64,000 bases of DNA. Source: Syntrophomonas sp. DTU018. Its GTDB lineage: Bacteria > Bacillota > Syntrophomonadia > Syntrophomonadales > Syntrophomonadaceae. This document shows positions 26,934 to 60,937 of this stretch, piece by piece. The notes beneath the pieces are model-generated. The model did not search any database and was not told where the DNA came from. It saw only the letters and a list, made by a program, of their open reading frames with translations. Positions within the stretch are counted from its first letter, which is position 1. Each line of letters begins with the position of its first letter. Location: positions 7,095 to 71,094 of the forward strand of contig LFSR01000004.1 in assembly GCA_001513155.1 (NCBI GenBank), given 5' to 3'. A program made the position numbers and the translations under genes.

Positions 26934-27833
26934 GTGGATATGAATGGGTTTAAACAGGAGCTGCAGCAGCGCAAAGAACTTATAGATCAGCATTTGCTGA
27001 AATACCTGGCACCAGAGGATACACATCCTGCAGTTATTCACCATGCCATGCACTATGCAGTTTTCAACGGCGGAAAGAGACTGCGGCCCATGCTGGTCCT
27101 GGAAGGAGCAGCTCTGGCCGGCAAAAAAACGGAGATAGCCATGCCCACCGCCTGCGGTATGGAACTGATTCATTGCTATTCCCTGGTTCATGACGATCTG
27201 CCTGCTATGGATGACGATGACTTCCGCCGGGGTAAGCCCACCTGCCATAAGGTTTTTGGGGAAGCCAACGCCATACTGACCGGAGATGCTTTGCTTACCG
27301 CGGCTTTTGAATTAATTGCTTCCAATGCTAAAGCACCGGGAGTACGTCCGGAGCAGGTGATCAGAGTTATCGGAGAGATAGCTGCTGCTGCCGGAAGCCG
27401 GGGCATGATCGGAGGGCAGGTTATGGATCTGGATGCGGAAAACAAGACTATTGACCTGTCAACTCTGCAGACCCTGCACAGTCTGAAGACTGGAGCTTTG
27501 TTCACCGCAGCCCTGCGAGCCGGTGCCATATTGGGGGATATGAATGAAGAAAAACTAGAGGCACTGACTTCCTATGCCAGGCATTTTGGCCTGGCTTTTC
27601 AAATAACCGATGATCTGCTGGATATTAAAGGCGATCAGGAGGTACTGGGCAAACCAGTCGGCAGTGACGCCAGGAATAACAAGAACACCTATCCCGGTCT
27701 GCTGGGATTGGAACAGGCTGAACTCATGGCCCGCCAAAGTATTGAACAATGTATAGCCAGCCTGGAGAGGTTTGGCCCGGAAGCGGATTTCCTGCGCCGG
27801 CTGGCTTGCTTTACTTTGGAAAGGGAAAGCTAA
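26934..27833 (+). CDS. ispA: farnesyl diphosphate synthase (polyprenyl synthetase)
   Basis: The product is 299 aa. GTG 26934 has AGGTGA 6 nt upstream; ATG 26940 is possible. The first Asp-rich motif is DDLPAMDDDD followed by FRRGKPT, the second is DDLLD, and GGKRLRPML and KTGALF are also present. The two extra residues in the first motif mark bacterial short-chain synthases. It condenses DMAPP/IPP to farnesyl-PP. It lies directly upstream of the OLE RNA, and dxs follows oapA, so this is the canonical ispA-ole-oapA-dxs arrangement. Confidence 0.94.
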   Translation: MDMNGFKQELQQRKELIDQHLLKYLAPEDTHPAVIHHAMHYAVFNGGKRLRPMLVLEGAALAGKKTEIAMPTACGMELIHCYSLVHDDLPAMDDDDFRRGKPTCHKVFGEANAILTGDALLTAAFELIASNAKAPGVRPEQVIRVIGEIAAAAGSRGMIGGQVMDLDAENKTIDLSTLQTLHSLKTGALFTAALRAGAILGDMNEEKLEALTSYARHFGLAFQITDDLLDIKGDQEVLGKPVGSDARNNKNTYPGLLGLEQAELMARQSIEQCIASLERFGPEADFLRRLACFTLERES

Positions 27834-27940: not shown

Positions 27941-27949
27941 TGCTATAAT
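27941..27949 (+). promoter_or_regulatory. extended -10 promoter of the OLE RNA
   Basis: TGCTATAAT: TG, one base, then a perfect TATAAT at 27944-27949. No good -35 exists 16-18 nt upstream, as is usual for extended -10 promoters. The predicted start point is near 27956. ispA ends 110 nt upstream, so some read-through is also possible. Confidence 0.65.
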
Positions 27950-27955
27950 ACATGT

Positions 27956-28590
27956 CGAAAACGGATCTGGCAAAAGGTTGCAGTATTCTAGTCAACCCTA
28001 TCGATTTCGAAGACGGGCCTAAAAATCCGTTAAGGGCACATCGATGAAGCTCCTGGTATCGGCTTTTGACGCCCAGTCAGGGGTCGTTGCTGGGAGATAA
28101 GGGTGATGGGGCGGCCCGCAATGGCATGCGGAAGCTGACCCCGCTCCCGTGGAGGCTTAAAACCGAATGGTTTTAAGAAAACCTGCATTTGGTAGATGCT
28201 GGGTGCAGTGTAGCCTGCCTTGAGTGGTTGCGGCGAATGGACCGCAAAGGGCGGCCAGTATCTCGGCCAAGATACTGATCGTCTGGTTCTGAAACCGGTG
28301 ACTGCAAAAGAGGCTAGAATCGATGTGGGTTGTCGAGGAAAACTCCTAGACTGCGTACGCATAGTACAGTTGGTTGAGGATTAAAGTGCGCACTAAGTGG
28401 CAATCCAGTCTCACTGGCGGCAACGCGGTGAAGCAGGCGTAAAGGGAAACCGCCCCTTTGGCAACAATCGGGTGTCCTGCTGGGAAAACCTACTGGACCT
28501 AAGTCGCAGCGTTTACTCAGCCAATAACCTTTTGCCGGATGAGATTTTCTTGGGGGATAGCAGTATTTGCAGCGCTACAACAGTCCCAAA
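27956..28590 (+). ncRNA. ole: OLE RNA (ornate, large, extremophilic)
   Basis: About 630 nt lie between ispA and the oapA-type gene without a credible protein, but with dense secondary structure, matching OLE RNA in size and location. Clear stems include CTTAAAACC-GAAT-GGTTTTAAG (28156-28177), GCGG/CCGC (28230-28245) and CAGTATCT-CGGCCA-AGATACTG (28256-28277). GC-rich paired segments such as GGGGCGG (28109-28115) also stand out from the flanks. The ncRNA lies in the known ispA-ole-oapA-dxs context and is followed by the OLE-associated membrane protein gene. OLE forms a ribonucleoprotein at the membrane and is linked to cold, alcohol and Mg2+ stress tolerance. I read identity from context, size and structure, not from a covariance search. 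The ends are approximate; the 3' end may overlap the oapA start. Confidence 0.85.
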
Positions 28591-29148
28591 ATGAGAAAGC
28601 ACTTATTAGCCGGTCTTGTGGTCGGCTTCTTCACATTTTTAATTGCCCTTTTACTGAGTTTAGGCTCGGAAGTCCTTATTAAAACAGTAAATAACCGTAT
28701 AATGGCCCTGGGATTATTATTAATAATAATACTGCTGGGCATTTTTTTTGATATTATAGGGACAGCGGTTACTGCCGCCCAAATTGCTCCCTTTAATGCC
28801 AAAGCCGCCAAAAAAGTATCCGGCGCTCCTCAGGCAGTCAGACTGACTCAGAATGCAGGCCAAGTGGCCAACTTCTGCAATGATGTAGTGGGTGATATTT
28901 CCGGGACCTTAAGCGGAGCAGTAGGGGCGGGTATTGTAGCTAGCCTGGCCAGCACTTTTCCCGCTTTGGATTTAGTTCTGGCCGGAGCAGTCATGACCAG
29001 TTTAATTGCTGCTCTGACCGTAGGAGGAAAAGCCATCGGCAAAAACCTGGCCGTTGAACATGCCAATCAAATAATATTCCAAGTAGCTAAAGTTATGGCT
29101 TATATTGAAGCCTTGACCGGACGCCAGCTGTTTGCCAGCAAAAGGTGA
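28591..29148 (+). CDS. oapA: OLE-associated membrane protein OapA
   Basis: The product is 185 aa from ATG 28591. Four hydrophobic segments are visible (about 5-25, 35-60, 108-130 and 136-155), with the conserved stretch DIIGTAVTAAQIAPFNAKAA and a small basic tail. This matches the 21-kDa OLE-associated protein always found next to OLE RNA; in Bacillus halodurans it binds OLE as a dimer and localises it to the membrane. No ribosome site precedes the ATG. TTG 28567, with GGGGGAT 8 nt upstream, would add eight residues (MQRYNSPK) and may be the true start, which would place the start codon inside the end of the RNA. Confidence 0.88.
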   Translation: MRKHLLAGLVVGFFTFLIALLLSLGSEVLIKTVNNRIMALGLLLIIILLGIFFDIIGTAVTAAQIAPFNAKAAKKVSGAPQAVRLTQNAGQVANFCNDVVGDISGTLSGAVGAGIVASLASTFPALDLVLAGAVMTSLIAALTVGGKAIGKNLAVEHANQIIFQVAKVMAYIEALTGRQLFASKR

Positions 29149-29154
29149 GTGATT

Positions 29155-31065
29155 ATGACTTTACTAGATAGCATCAATTCTCCCCAAGACCTGAAAAAAT
29201 TAGATGTGTCTGCCATGTATAATCTGGCGGAAGAAATACGGGAATTGTTAATAAACAGCGTTTCCCGGTGCGGGGGCCATTTAGCTGCCAATTTGGGAGT
29301 GGTGGAACTGACCCTGGCACTGCACTATGTGTTTGACAGCCCCCGGGACAAATTGATTTGGGACGTGGGGCATCAGAGCTATGTACATAAAATCCTTACC
29401 GGCCGCCGGGAGCAGATGAAGACCCTGCGCCAGTTTGGAGGGCTGAGCGGATTTCCCAAGATTGAGGAATCCCCCCACGATACTTTTAATACCGGTCATA
29501 GCAGTACTTCCATTTCCGCGGCTTTGGGACTGGCTATTGCCCGGGATTTAAATAAAGAAGACTACTCGGTTATAGCCATAATCGGCGATGGAGCCCTGAC
29601 CGGAGGTATGGCTTTCGAAGCCCTGAATCATGCCGGAAATGAAGACCGGGATTTGATTGTAGTACTTAACGATAATGAAATGTCCATTTCTCACAATGTG
29701 GGGGCCTTGTCTGCCTATCTTAACCGGCTGCGTACCGACCCCTCCTATTCCCGCACTAAGGAAGATATTGAAGCTATTCTGAAACGGATCCCGGGAATTG
29801 GGCCCAATATTGCCCGGGCAGCCGGCCGCTTTAAGGATCTGGTCAAATACATGATGGTTCCGGGCGCCTTTTTTGAGGAACTGGGGTTTACTTATATTGG
29901 TCCGGTTAATGGGCATAATCTGGAAGAGTTAATCCTGGTTTTCCGGAATGCCCGCCGCATGAAAGGGCCTATTTTAATCCATGCCATTACCGAAAAAGGG
30001 CGGGGGTATGAGCCTGCCAGCCGTAATCCGGACCTGTTCCACGGAGTAGGACCTTTCAACATAGAAACCGGCCTCCCGGTAAAAAAAGCAGTACGCACTT
30101 ATACCGAAGTGTTTGGCGAATTTATGGTGGAAAGAGGCCAACAGGATGCCAGGGTGGTGGCTATTACTGCCGCCATGACTTCCGGCACTGGATTAACTGA
30201 GTTTGCCCGGCAGTATCCGGAGCGCTTTTTTGACGTCGGAATCTGTGAACAACATGCGGTTACTCTGGCCGCAGGTATGGCCCGGGCGGGCCTGAGGCCG
30301 GTTGTGGCTATTTATTCTACCTTCCTGCAGAGAGCCTATGATCAGATTGTACATGATGTGGCCCTGCAAAACCTGCCCGTGATTTTTGCCGTGGACCGGG
30401 CTGGTTTGGTAGGGGAAGACGGACCAACTCATCACGGGGTATTTGATCTTTCCTATTTACGCAGTATTCCCAATATGACGGTGATGGCTCCTGCAGACGA
30501 AAATGAACTGGTGCAGATGCTGCATACCGCTTTTACCCTGGAGGGACCGGTGGCTATCCGCTACCCCCGCGGGGTCGGATTGGGAATCCCCCTCACTAGT
30601 CCCTACCAGGTGCTGCCGGCAGGCCGGGGAGTAATGCTGCAGGAGGGCCAAGACCTGGCTGTGATCGGCATAGGCCGCGGCACCGCTTTGGGGCGGGAAC
30701 TAGTTGAGCGTTTAGCCCAGCTGGGCATAAATGCTTCCCTGGCCGATGCCCGCTATGTCAAACCCCTGGACCGGCAATTGATCTGCCATTTGGCCTGTAC
30801 TCACAAGTATCTGGTAACCATCGAGGATAACGTTGTCAGTGGGGGCTTTGGCAGTGCGGTACTGGAAGCCTTGCAGGAAGAGCGGTTGCAGGCTGATTTG
30901 CTGAGGGTAGGAATTCCCGATGAGTTTGTCGAACATGGCAGAGTAGACGTTTTGTTTGAATATTTAGATATGAGCCCGGAGGCAATTATGGAATTGATTT
31001 TCAATCGCTGGCCGGAATTGGTTCAGCCCCAGGGCTGGGAGTTGCTGAAGTTTGGCAAAAATTAG
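29155..31065 (+). CDS. dxs: 1-deoxy-D-xylulose-5-phosphate synthase
   Basis: The product is 636 aa. ATG 29155 has AAAGGTGA at the oapA stop. TPP-binding GDGALTGGMAFEALNHAG is followed by NDNEMSIS. HVGHQSYVHKILTGR-type sequence (here WDVGHQSYVHK) and the C-terminal FAVDRAGLVGEDGPTHHGVFD are diagnostic. It makes DXP from pyruvate and glyceraldehyde-3-P, the first step of the MEP isoprenoid pathway that feeds IspA. Overlaps tlyA by 14 nt. Confidence 0.96.
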   Translation: MTLLDSINSPQDLKKLDVSAMYNLAEEIRELLINSVSRCGGHLAANLGVVELTLALHYVFDSPRDKLIWDVGHQSYVHKILTGRREQMKTLRQFGGLSGFPKIEESPHDTFNTGHSSTSISAALGLAIARDLNKEDYSVIAIIGDGALTGGMAFEALNHAGNEDRDLIVVLNDNEMSISHNVGALSAYLNRLRTDPSYSRTKEDIEAILKRIPGIGPNIARAAGRFKDLVKYMMVPGAFFEELGFTYIGPVNGHNLEELILVFRNARRMKGPILIHAITEKGRGYEPASRNPDLFHGVGPFNIETGLPVKKAVRTYTEVFGEFMVERGQQDARVVAITAAMTSGTGLTEFARQYPERFFDVGICEQHAVTLAAGMARAGLRPVVAIYSTFLQRAYDQIVHDVALQNLPVIFAVDRAGLVGEDGPTHHGVFDLSYLRSIPNMTVMAPADENELVQMLHTAFTLEGPVAIRYPRGVGLGIPLTSPYQVLPAGRGVMLQEGQDLAVIGIGRGTALGRELVERLAQLGINASLADARYVKPLDRQLICHLACTHKYLVTIEDNVVSGGFGSAVLEALQEERLQADLLRVGIPDEFVEHGRVDVLFEYLDMSPEAIMELIFNRWPELVQPQGWELLKFGKN

Positions 31066-57462: not shown

Positions 57463-57495
57463 ATGTATACATTACTTTATCAAGGAGGTATTTGT

Positions 57496-59136
57496 ATGGC
57501 AGAAATTAGAGGCGGCACCATGGTGCAGAAAGTGCTGAAAAAAGAAGGGGTAAAGTATATTTTTGGTATCCCTGGAGGCCATATTTATCCAATGATGGAA
57601 TCCTGTGAGGAAAACGGCATTAAATTCATTGGCGTAAGACACGAGATGACAGCAGCCATGATGGCTCAGGGATGGGCGCTGGCTACCGGTGAAGTAGGGG
57701 TGTGTACCGCCACCGCCGGACCGGGAGTCACCAATTTGGTAACCGGCATTGCCAATGCTGAGCGGGACTGCGCACCCGTTCTGGTCATTGGCGGCAAGGC
57801 AGCTATTAACCAGTATGACCGCAATGAAATGCAGGACTTTAACCAGCTGGATCTTTTCAAACCCCTGACCAAACATGCTCGGGTGGTATTGGAGAGTCAC
57901 CGGATTCCTGAATATATTGGCCGGGGCATTGCTGAAGCCACCACCGGCAGGCCGGGCCCGGTTTACATTGAGATTCCCCGGGATATCATGGAAGGCTATG
58001 TGGATGAGTCCCAGGTTGAATACCAAAACACCTACCGGTTGGAGAACAGGCCCCTGGGCAACCCGGTTGACATTGAAAGAGCAGCCAAGCTTTTGAATGA
58101 AGCCCAAAGACCTTTAATTGTAGCCGGCAGCGGAGCTTTCTATGCCAAGGCCGGGGAGGAACTGAAACAGTTTGTGGAGAAGACCGGAATTCCTTTCTGC
58201 ACCCGCAATGCAGCTCGCGGTCTGGTTCCTGACAGCCATCCATTATACGTGACTATTGCAGCTTCCAAGCATCCAGTTTTTGCCGGAGCAGCTGCCAATG
58301 CCGACGTAGTTCTAATCCTGGGAACCCGTCCTGGCTATCTGATGACCAGGGACTCCTTCCCCAACGCTAAAATTATCCGGGTTGACATCAGTGCTACTGC
58401 CATTACCGACCAGTTGGATGTAGAAGTTGGCATTGTAGGCGATGTAAAAGAGGTCTTGAAACAATTAATTGACGCAGTAGAACCCAAAACTCATGAGGGC
58501 TGGGTAAACGCCCTGAACAATGGCAAACAGCAGATGATGCAGGCTGCAATACCTCTGGTCACCTCGGATCAAAAACCCATCCATCCGGCCCGGTTGATGT
58601 TCGAAATCAGGCAGCGGATAGATGAAAACACCATTGTGGTTATCGATGGCGGTGACACTGCGTCTTTCGGTAATATATTCCTGCCTGCTACCGGTCCTGG
58701 TCAGTACATGGGTATCGCCAACGGCAGCTTTGGACCTCTGGGAGTAGGGGTACCCTATGCCATGGCTGCTAAATTGGCTCATCCGGATAAGAAAGTTATC
58801 CTGCTCACCGGTGACGGGGCTTTCGGATACGGGGCTATGGAATACGATACCGCCCTGCGTTACGGCATCAAATTTACCACCATCATTCTCAATGACGGAT
58901 GCTGGGGTATGATTAAGCGGTCCGAAGCCAAGAAGGCCGGAGAAGATAAACCCTTTGTAGGACTTTTCCTGAGAGAAGAAGTCCGTTATGACCAGGTGGT
59001 GGAAGCTCTGGGCGGTTATGGTGAATTTGTCACCGAACCGGCAGACATCGGTCCTGCCATTGACCGGGCTTTGGCTTCTGATAAGCCAGCGGTTGTCAAT
59101 GTGATAACTGACGTAAATATAGGTCCCAATGTTTAA
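57496..59136 (+). CDS. thiamine diphosphate enzyme, acetolactate synthase / 2-hydroxyacyl-CoA lyase-like
   Basis: The product is 546 aa. ATG 57496 has AAGGAGGT 6 nt upstream. Catalytic Glu is in VRHEMTAAMMAQGWA (about 50), a central domain spans about 190-320, and the TPP motif runs from GDGAFGYGAMEYDTALRYG to ILNDGCWGM. The family carries out C-C bond cleavage or formation on 2-oxo or 2-hydroxy acids. It lacks markers that would fix it as acetolactate synthase (no regulatory subunit nearby). Pairs with the Xsc-like enzyme downstream. Confidence 0.82.
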   Translation: MAEIRGGTMVQKVLKKEGVKYIFGIPGGHIYPMMESCEENGIKFIGVRHEMTAAMMAQGWALATGEVGVCTATAGPGVTNLVTGIANAERDCAPVLVIGGKAAINQYDRNEMQDFNQLDLFKPLTKHARVVLESHRIPEYIGRGIAEATTGRPGPVYIEIPRDIMEGYVDESQVEYQNTYRLENRPLGNPVDIERAAKLLNEAQRPLIVAGSGAFYAKAGEELKQFVEKTGIPFCTRNAARGLVPDSHPLYVTIAASKHPVFAGAAANADVVLILGTRPGYLMTRDSFPNAKIIRVDISATAITDQLDVEVGIVGDVKEVLKQLIDAVEPKTHEGWVNALNNGKQQMMQAAIPLVTSDQKPIHPARLMFEIRQRIDENTIVVIDGGDTASFGNIFLPATGPGQYMGIANGSFGPLGVGVPYAMAAKLAHPDKKVILLTGDGAFGYGAMEYDTALRYGIKFTTIILNDGCWGMIKRSEAKKAGEDKPFVGLFLREEVRYDQVVEALGGYGEFVTEPADIGPAIDRALASDKPAVVNVITDVNIGPNV

Positions 59137-59203
59137 TAAACCTCTGGCAACGATAGCTTAGCCGGAATCATCTAGGTAACTGTTATGGTAAGGAGGACTA
59201 AAC

Positions 59204-60937
59204 ATGGCTAAACAAAAAATGGTAGCCAGTGAAGCAATTGTTGAGACTTTGGTAGCTGAAGGTGTGGATCACGTTTCAGGTATCGTAGGTTCAGCTTTTA
59301 TGGATCTGCTGGATCTGTTCCCGGCGGCAGGTATAAGGTTTATCCCGGTACGACATGAGCAGAGTGCTGCCCATATGGAGGATGCCTACGCCCGGGTAAC
59401 CGGCAAATGCGGTGTGGTAATAGGCCAAAACGGACCGGGCATAACCAACATGGTTACCTCGGTGGCTGCTGCCAATATGGGCCATACCCCTATGGTAGTA
59501 ATCGCCCCTTCGGCGGGCAGCAAAACCGTAGGGTGGGATGGCTTCCAGGAATGTGACCAGGTGTCGGTTTTCAAAGCTATAACCAAAGCAACCATACGCT
59601 TGCCCCATCCCAGCCGGGCGGCAGATTGCACCCGGGCAGCCTTCCGGGCGGCTTATGCCCTGCGGGGACCTGTTCTGCTGGACATTCCCCGGGACTATTT
59701 CTACGGAGAGGTGGAGGACTATATCCTGCAGCCTCATCAATACCGGGTGGATAACCGGGGCTGCGGTTCCCCAGAAGCCTTGGAAAGGGCCGCTGAGCTG
59801 CTGGCTGATGCCAAAAAACCAGTAATAGTTTCCGGGCGCGGTGTGGTGGATACTGATGCCCATGATATCGTGGCCCAGATAGCCGACCTGCTGACGGCTC
59901 CCGTGGCCTGCACCTACCTGCACAACGATGCTTTTCCGGCCAATCACCCCCTGCATGTGGGCCCGATTGGTTATATGGGATCCAAAGCGGCTATGTACAG
60001 CCTGGCTGAGGCGGATGTCATTCTGGCCCTGGGAACCAGATTGTCTGTATTTGGAACCCTGCCCCAGTATGACATAAACTACTTCCCGGAAACCGCCAAG
60101 ATTATCCAGGTGGACATCAACCCCCTTAATATTGCCAGAACACACCCCATTGAAGTGGGTATTATCGGTGATGCCAAAGCTGCCGCTGTTGAAATACTGA
60201 AACTGCTCCGGGCCAAAGTGGGAGACCGCAAGCCTGATGAGGCACGTTTGAAGGAAATAGCTGACCGGAAAGCCGCCTGGAGAAAAGAAATTGAAGACCT
60301 GGCCATGGTGCCTGGCAATCCTATTAATCCCAGAAGAGTGCTCTATGAATTGGCCAAAGTTATGCCGGAAGACGCTATTTTGGCTACCGATATCGGCAAT
60401 GTGGCTTCTACTGCCAACAGCTATTTCAATTTCAACAAGGGCCGTCAGCATATTGCCGCTTTGACTTTCGGCAACACCGGCTTCTCTTATCCCGCTGCTC
60501 TAGGTGCCAAATTGGGCCGTCCCGAAGCCCCGGTTTTCAACATCGTTGGCGACGGTGCCTGGGGAATGAGCCTGCACGAAGTAAGCACCGCAGTTCAGGA
60601 AAATATTCCGGTAGTAGCCTGTGTATTCCATAACACTGCCTGGTGTGCTGAGAAGAAAAACCAGATAGATTTTTACAATAACCGGTTTATCGGAGTAGAC
60701 ATTGAGGCTCCCAACTTTGCTGAAGTGGCCAAAGTCATGGGTGCCTATGGGGCTACTATTGACCGTGCTGAAGACGTAGGCGATGCTTTCCTGGAGGCTA
60801 TTAAATCAGGCCGTCCGGCAGTTCTGCAGTTTGAAGTTGACGGAACCCAGCTGGCACCGCCCTTCAGAAAAGACGCCCTGCAACTGCCGGTAAGATATCT
60901 GGAGAAGTATAAACATTTGGATCACAGAAATTGGTAG
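59204..60937 (+). CDS. xsc: sulfoacetaldehyde acetyltransferase (Xsc)-like thiamine diphosphate enzyme
   Basis: The product is 577 aa, normal for Xsc. [39 protein letters not shown] and [18 protein letters not shown] follow the Xsc pattern closely, the catalytic Glu is in [15 protein letters not shown], and the TPP motif is [12 protein letters not shown] with [17 protein letters not shown]. The tail [15 protein letters not shown] is also typical. Xsc converts sulfoacetaldehyde and phosphate to acetyl phosphate and sulfite. One residue of the usual WGAEKKNQ is Cys here. No taurine or isethionate enzyme is adjacent, so a different substrate is possible. Confidence 0.82.

Follow-up and report, generated by a model that had tools for sequence, protein, structure and literature searches.

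A complete OLE RNA–oapA locus in a Syntrophomonadaceae bacterium, and evidence for OLE RNA in an Actinomycetota class

A preliminary description of the 64-kb window analysed here (the whole stretch of DNA) had placed an OLE RNA and the gene for its membrane protein, oapA, between ispA and dxs, and had taken this as an extension of the setting in which OLE is known. The locus raises the question of whether the RNA is complete and likely to function, and of where else such loci occur. The flanks were confirmed by Pfam: ispA, encoding a polyprenyl synthetase (26934–27833, + strand; PF00348, 208.8 bits), lies upstream of OLE, and dxs (29149–31065, + strand; PF13292, 425.5 bits) lies downstream of oapA. 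Also upstream is xseB, while dxs is followed by a gene for a TlyA-type S4/FtsJ methyltransferase and, farther downstream, by spoIVB and spo0A, recognised by their matches to the respective NCBIfam models. Isoprenoid and sporulation genes are the usual neighbourhood of OLE (PMC12265935; PMC11332333).

The identity of the RNA as OLE is certain. The Rfam model (RF01071) matches positions 27959–28547 of the + strand over its full length (model positions 1–616 of 616), with 493.8 bits and an E-value of 7.2e-142; the covariance search that had been proposed for this region therefore returned a score far above the gathering threshold of 50 bits, and the claim of a complete OLE RNA was borne out. It was the only Rfam family matched across the window, and the genome, a metagenome-assembled genome (MAG) of a Syntrophomonadaceae bacterium (2.56 Mb in 59 contigs, 99.9% complete), carries a single copy. 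The length given earlier, about 630 nt, was too long: the RNA measures about 590 nt by the model, or 593 nt (27957–28549, + strand) if its terminal helix, P1, is taken as the boundary and the ends are placed by P1 and promoter spacing.

The locus is a known RNA in its expected place, and a typical, ordinary copy. OLE was found in 44 of the 54 Syntrophomonadaceae genomes, and in 26 of the 28 of good quality, so that it is nearly universal in the family and its presence in the window was to be expected. Beyond this genome, oapA has its closest relatives, at 89% and 82% identity, in MAGs with the names "Bacillota bacterium" and "Syntrophomonas sp."; those of Syntrophomonadaceae and of Thermosyntropha lipolytica come next. 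Given this distribution, and because OLE is known throughout Bacillota (PMC11332333), the suggested extension of its setting is not supported. It had been tied to an Xsc (sulfoacetaldehyde acetyltransferase) gene, which is genuine (59204–60937, 841 bits) and lies 30 kb from OLE; the Xsc genes have no visible connection with the OLE locus and are irrelevant to it. A homologue of thiamine pyrophosphate (TPP) enzymes (57463–59136) directly precedes Xsc, and beside this region (57463–60937) lie genes for a 3-hydroxyacyl-CoA dehydrogenase-like protein and for an MFS transporter.

The OLE gene has its own extended −10 promoter, TGCTATAAT (27941–27949, + strand), as the preliminary description had it, with the TG at 27941–27942 and TATAAT at 27944–27949. 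Its −35 element is weak (TGGCAA, with an 18-bp spacer), and standard promoter spacing predicts a transcription start at about 27956–27957. Among 85 non-redundant OLE loci, 76 carried a TGn-extended TATAAT-like hexamer at 30–59 nt ahead of the CTAG anchor, versus 5 of 85 in the adjacent stretch (60–89 nt) that served as a comparison. A −35-like hexamer (at least 5 of 6 positions, 16–18 bp spacing) accompanied it in 17 of those 76, where 1.6 would be expected. The nine loci without the element at 30–59 nt include all six Actinomycetota loci sampled at that stage, several of which show a similar element farther upstream. That the OLE gene of Halalkalibacterium halodurans has its own promoter is known (cited in PMC9723947), and a dedicated extended −10 promoter appears, from these sequences, to be general in Bacillota.

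The ends of the RNA are probably set by P1, a helix formed by 27957–27980 and 28525–28549 (both + strand; −28.1 kcal/mol by duplex folding), the outermost pair of which is G27957–C28549 and the 3′ strand of which would mark the 3′ end. Minimum-energy folding of the entire RNA gives the same closing helix; the RF01071 model leaves these ends unpaired. Since duplex folding on 40-nt arms was noisy, P1 statistics were taken from an anchored count over 89 loci: at least 8 contiguous P1 pairs lie beside the conserved GCAGTATYCTAG in 74 of them, versus 4.5% with shuffled 5′ strands. Most P1 positions show several Watson–Crick types, for example T–A in 31 and G–C in 55 loci at position 2, or G–C in 31 and T–A in 49 at position 4. 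As read from this comparison, the helix is supported by compensatory changes among relatives, and it is probably the published P1. Promoter spacing and P1 are independent cues, and because they agree, an RNA of about 593 nt is predicted.

Just outside P1 stands the Shine-Dalgarno sequence GGGGGA (28552–28557, + strand), at which place relatives have GGAGGA or GGGGGA, and 9 nt beyond it begins oapA (28567–29148, + strand; 193 aa) with a TTG codon. From the last P1 pair (28549) to the TTG the distance is 18 nt, and the order of P1, Shine-Dalgarno and TTG recurs across Syntrophomonadaceae. With one start caller, and with the window locus included, TTG was chosen in 67 of 79 oapA loci from two phyla: in 26 of 28 Syntrophomonadaceae, 30 of 40 other Bacillota and 11 of 11 Humimicrobiia, related loci not being independent of each other. 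The same caller chose TTG in 60 of 232 starts of control genes (dxs, tlyA, lepA, nadK, recN, and ispA), and since it over-calls this codon (26% in controls), the 85% for oapA is to be read as relative, not absolute. The conservation of a weak start suggests that OapA production may be purposely kept low next to an RNA that is abundant.

The oapA start had previously been placed inside the 3′ end of the RNA, with a coupling of RNA processing and translation as a consequence. If the start did overlap the OLE 3′ end, processing of the RNA and translation of oapA would exclude or control each other, and the spacing is indeed close: the Shine-Dalgarno sequence starts 3 nt downstream of P1, the oapA start falls 15–37 nt past the end of the OLE match in most family members, and folding or cleavage of P1 could still alter ribosome access. 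However, P1 bounds the RNA in the window and leaves the TTG beyond it, OLE is transcribed from its own promoter, and in Syntrophomonadaceae relatives such as L009, L011, L017, L027, and L028, inserts of about 100–390 nt between P1 and oapA put its start about 96–390 nt farther on, so tight coupling is not general. We therefore regard an overlap as unlikely. Some of the inserts resemble palindromic repeat elements.

Slightly less likely again is that oapA really begins at the ATG at 28591 and that the TTG is unused. ATG is the commonest start codon, and outside the genus the OapA alignment is poor up to about position 10; however, 28591 is preceded by no Shine-Dalgarno sequence, whereas GGGGGA stands before the TTG, the closest relatives retain MQRY from the same TTG, and TTG is chosen for oapA far beyond its frequency in control starts called in the same way. 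It is scarcely credible that the locus is a decayed or non-expressed remnant, for although the 3′ hairpins contain some mismatched pairs and the hairpin near model positions 204–240 is shortened, the full-length match ranks among the top OLE scores of Syntrophomonadaceae, the promoter, P1 and oapA are intact, and homologues of oapB and oapC are present in the genome. The reading that we prefer, a complete locus for a functional OLE ribonucleoprotein in a member of the Syntrophomonadaceae, is almost certainly correct, judging from the sequence and from analogy with H. halodurans.

Homologues of OapB and OapC, which the preliminary description had proposed to seek elsewhere in the genome, were both found. 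The OapB homologue is a 115-aa ORF between map and infA (contig C24), located by this position and by its match to H. halodurans OapB (PDB 7k9b, E 7.9e-11). The two KOW (PF00467) matches in the genome were rejected as OapB, one being L24 and the other probably NusG. For OapC, the homologue is an L7Ae protein of 83 aa encoded between rpoC and rpsL (contig C49; E 4.9e-19 to YbxF, 4lck). Homologues of oapB and of oapC/YbxF are common, not universal, companions of OLE. MpfA was not found in the genome, the only CNNM match being OapA itself, below the cut-off; this agrees with the published anticorrelation of OLE and MpfA (PMC11332333).

From these elements, the following working of the locus may be proposed. 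A promoter of the type used by the primary sigma factor would start the RNA of about 593 nt at 27956–27957, and the RNA would fold into the OLE structure, closed by P1. Directly downstream, oapA would be translated from its TTG, behind a strong Shine-Dalgarno sequence, the weak codon probably keeping OapA synthesis low, and the OapB and OapC homologues would be supplied from elsewhere in the genome. By analogy with work on H. halodurans, OapB and OapC would aid the folding of OLE, and dimers of OapA, as cryo-EM work also suggests, would bind P2/P4a and so tether an OLE RNA dimer in the membrane. The complex may then serve Mg2+ homeostasis and the response to cold, alcohol, and carbon-source stress, as in H. 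halodurans, and may act in place of the absent exporter MpfA.

Where else such loci occur was followed through relatives of OapA. At 80 loci with such relatives, OLE lies just upstream in 79, the exception (L050) being cut by a contig end. Six of the 80 come from MAGs labelled Actinomycetota or named Candidatus Humimicrobium oleiphilum, and all six have a full OLE (429–462 bits). OLE RNAs were previously thought confined to Bacillota: a survey of GTDB reported only 24 matches outside that phylum, called their flanks Bacillota-like, suggested transfer or assembly error, and left them out (PMC11332333). Across the class Candidatus Humimicrobiia, a full-length OLE (430–499 bits) is present in 17 of 40 genomes, never in more than one copy (loci L122–L138, also L056, L060, L087, L096, L105, and L112, one per genome).

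In the OLE tree, the 17 Humimicrobiia RNAs form a single clade (support 100/99) nested among Bacillota OLEs. Their flanks differ from ispA/dxs and are common to independent MAGs: several genomes have the order lepA-murJ-holA-OLE-oapA-comEC, and in others the locus lies in a DegV-rich region. The LepA of an OLE contig shares 95% identity with that of an OLE-negative member of the class, versus 58–60% with LepA of Bacillota, and falls within the Humimicrobiia clade in the LepA tree. In two close OLE-negative relatives the holA-comEC junction is empty, with 49 nt (L188, 5779–5828) and 47 nt (L189, 5898–5945) between the genes, from which it follows that ole-oapA comes and goes as a unit. Taken together, the one clade, the non-Bacillota flanks, the class-type LepA on an OLE contig and the empty sites speak against simple contamination, and these sequences strongly indicate that OLE RNA has become established in a class of Actinomycetota, on real Humimicrobiia contigs. 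In the LepA tree, genomes with OLE are interspersed with those lacking it; a single gain followed by losses, spread among members of the class, or incompleteness of the MAGs would each fit.

OLE and oapA very probably make up a two-gene cassette that is self-contained and has truly taken hold outside Bacillota, after a single transfer into Humimicrobiia that founded the clade now seen in 17 of the 40 genomes at several chromosomal sites. If so, OLE RNA and OapA would operate there in cells of another kind, most of which have no MpfA. The 40 Humimicrobiia genomes gave a single transporter-strength CNNM protein; as its genome is OLE-positive, the idea that MpfA substitutes for OLE in the OLE-negative members was set aside.

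Two further observations concern single MAGs. At L087 (5001–5477), a Humimicrobiia locus, the oapA match has an in-frame stop, from sequencing error or decay. A single study supplied two MAGs with the label Desulfovibrio that also contain OLE and oapA (L053, 3377–3956, and L097, 1–574); the OLE of L053 groups with those of Bacillota, which makes misbinning or recent transfer likely (L097 is outside the tree).

The window locus thus adds one more OLE to a family in which OLE is the rule, and its comparison with relatives yields testable details, namely the dedicated promoter, the end-fixing terminal helix and the TTG start of oapA. The part that will be new to specialists is the occurrence in Humimicrobiia, which would alter the view of how one of the largest RNAs of unknown biochemical function has evolved, and would provide a second background for recognising its minimal partners, the RNA and OapA.

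The protein that follows the RNA, as the preliminary description had stated, is the OLE-associated membrane protein: it has the diagnostic DxxxD motif, whose D106 and D110 are invariant in all 42 aligned relatives, and a CNNM-like fold. In sequence it matches the Pfam CNNM domain (PF01595) of CNNM/CorB/CorC Mg2+ transporters weakly, with 22.8 bits, under the cut-off of 28.4. Its AlphaFold2 model (pLDDT 84) resembles that domain with a TM-score of up to 0.55 by query length; among the matches listed, the top five PDB entries are all CNNM/CorB/CorC (probability 1.00) and the others reach at most 0.21. According to the model, OapA has a CNNM-like membrane fold, a structural resemblance already published for OapA of H. 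halodurans (PMC11332333). An identity as an MpfA/CorB transporter was ruled out from its 193 aa and the sub-threshold CNNM score; unlike those transporters, OapA is without CBS and CorC domains and has DxxxD.

Compared with the OLE system of H. halodurans, one difference concerns bS21 (PF01165), a published OLE partner that was not found in the assembly, despite its 99.9% completeness. The three congeners all encode it, as do 50 of the 54 Syntrophomonadaceae genomes, so a gap in the assembly is the likely cause; with bS21 in every congener, the idea of its loss as a natural test of the bS21 hypothesis was dropped. P1 differs in a compensatory manner between the RF01071 model (GUGGU/ACCAC) and the window (AAGGUU/AACCUU). 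In all other respects compared, the locus shares the H. halodurans arrangement: a full-length RNA by covariance model with its own promoter, oapA directly downstream with DxxxD in its product, no MpfA, and homologues of both OapB and OapC.
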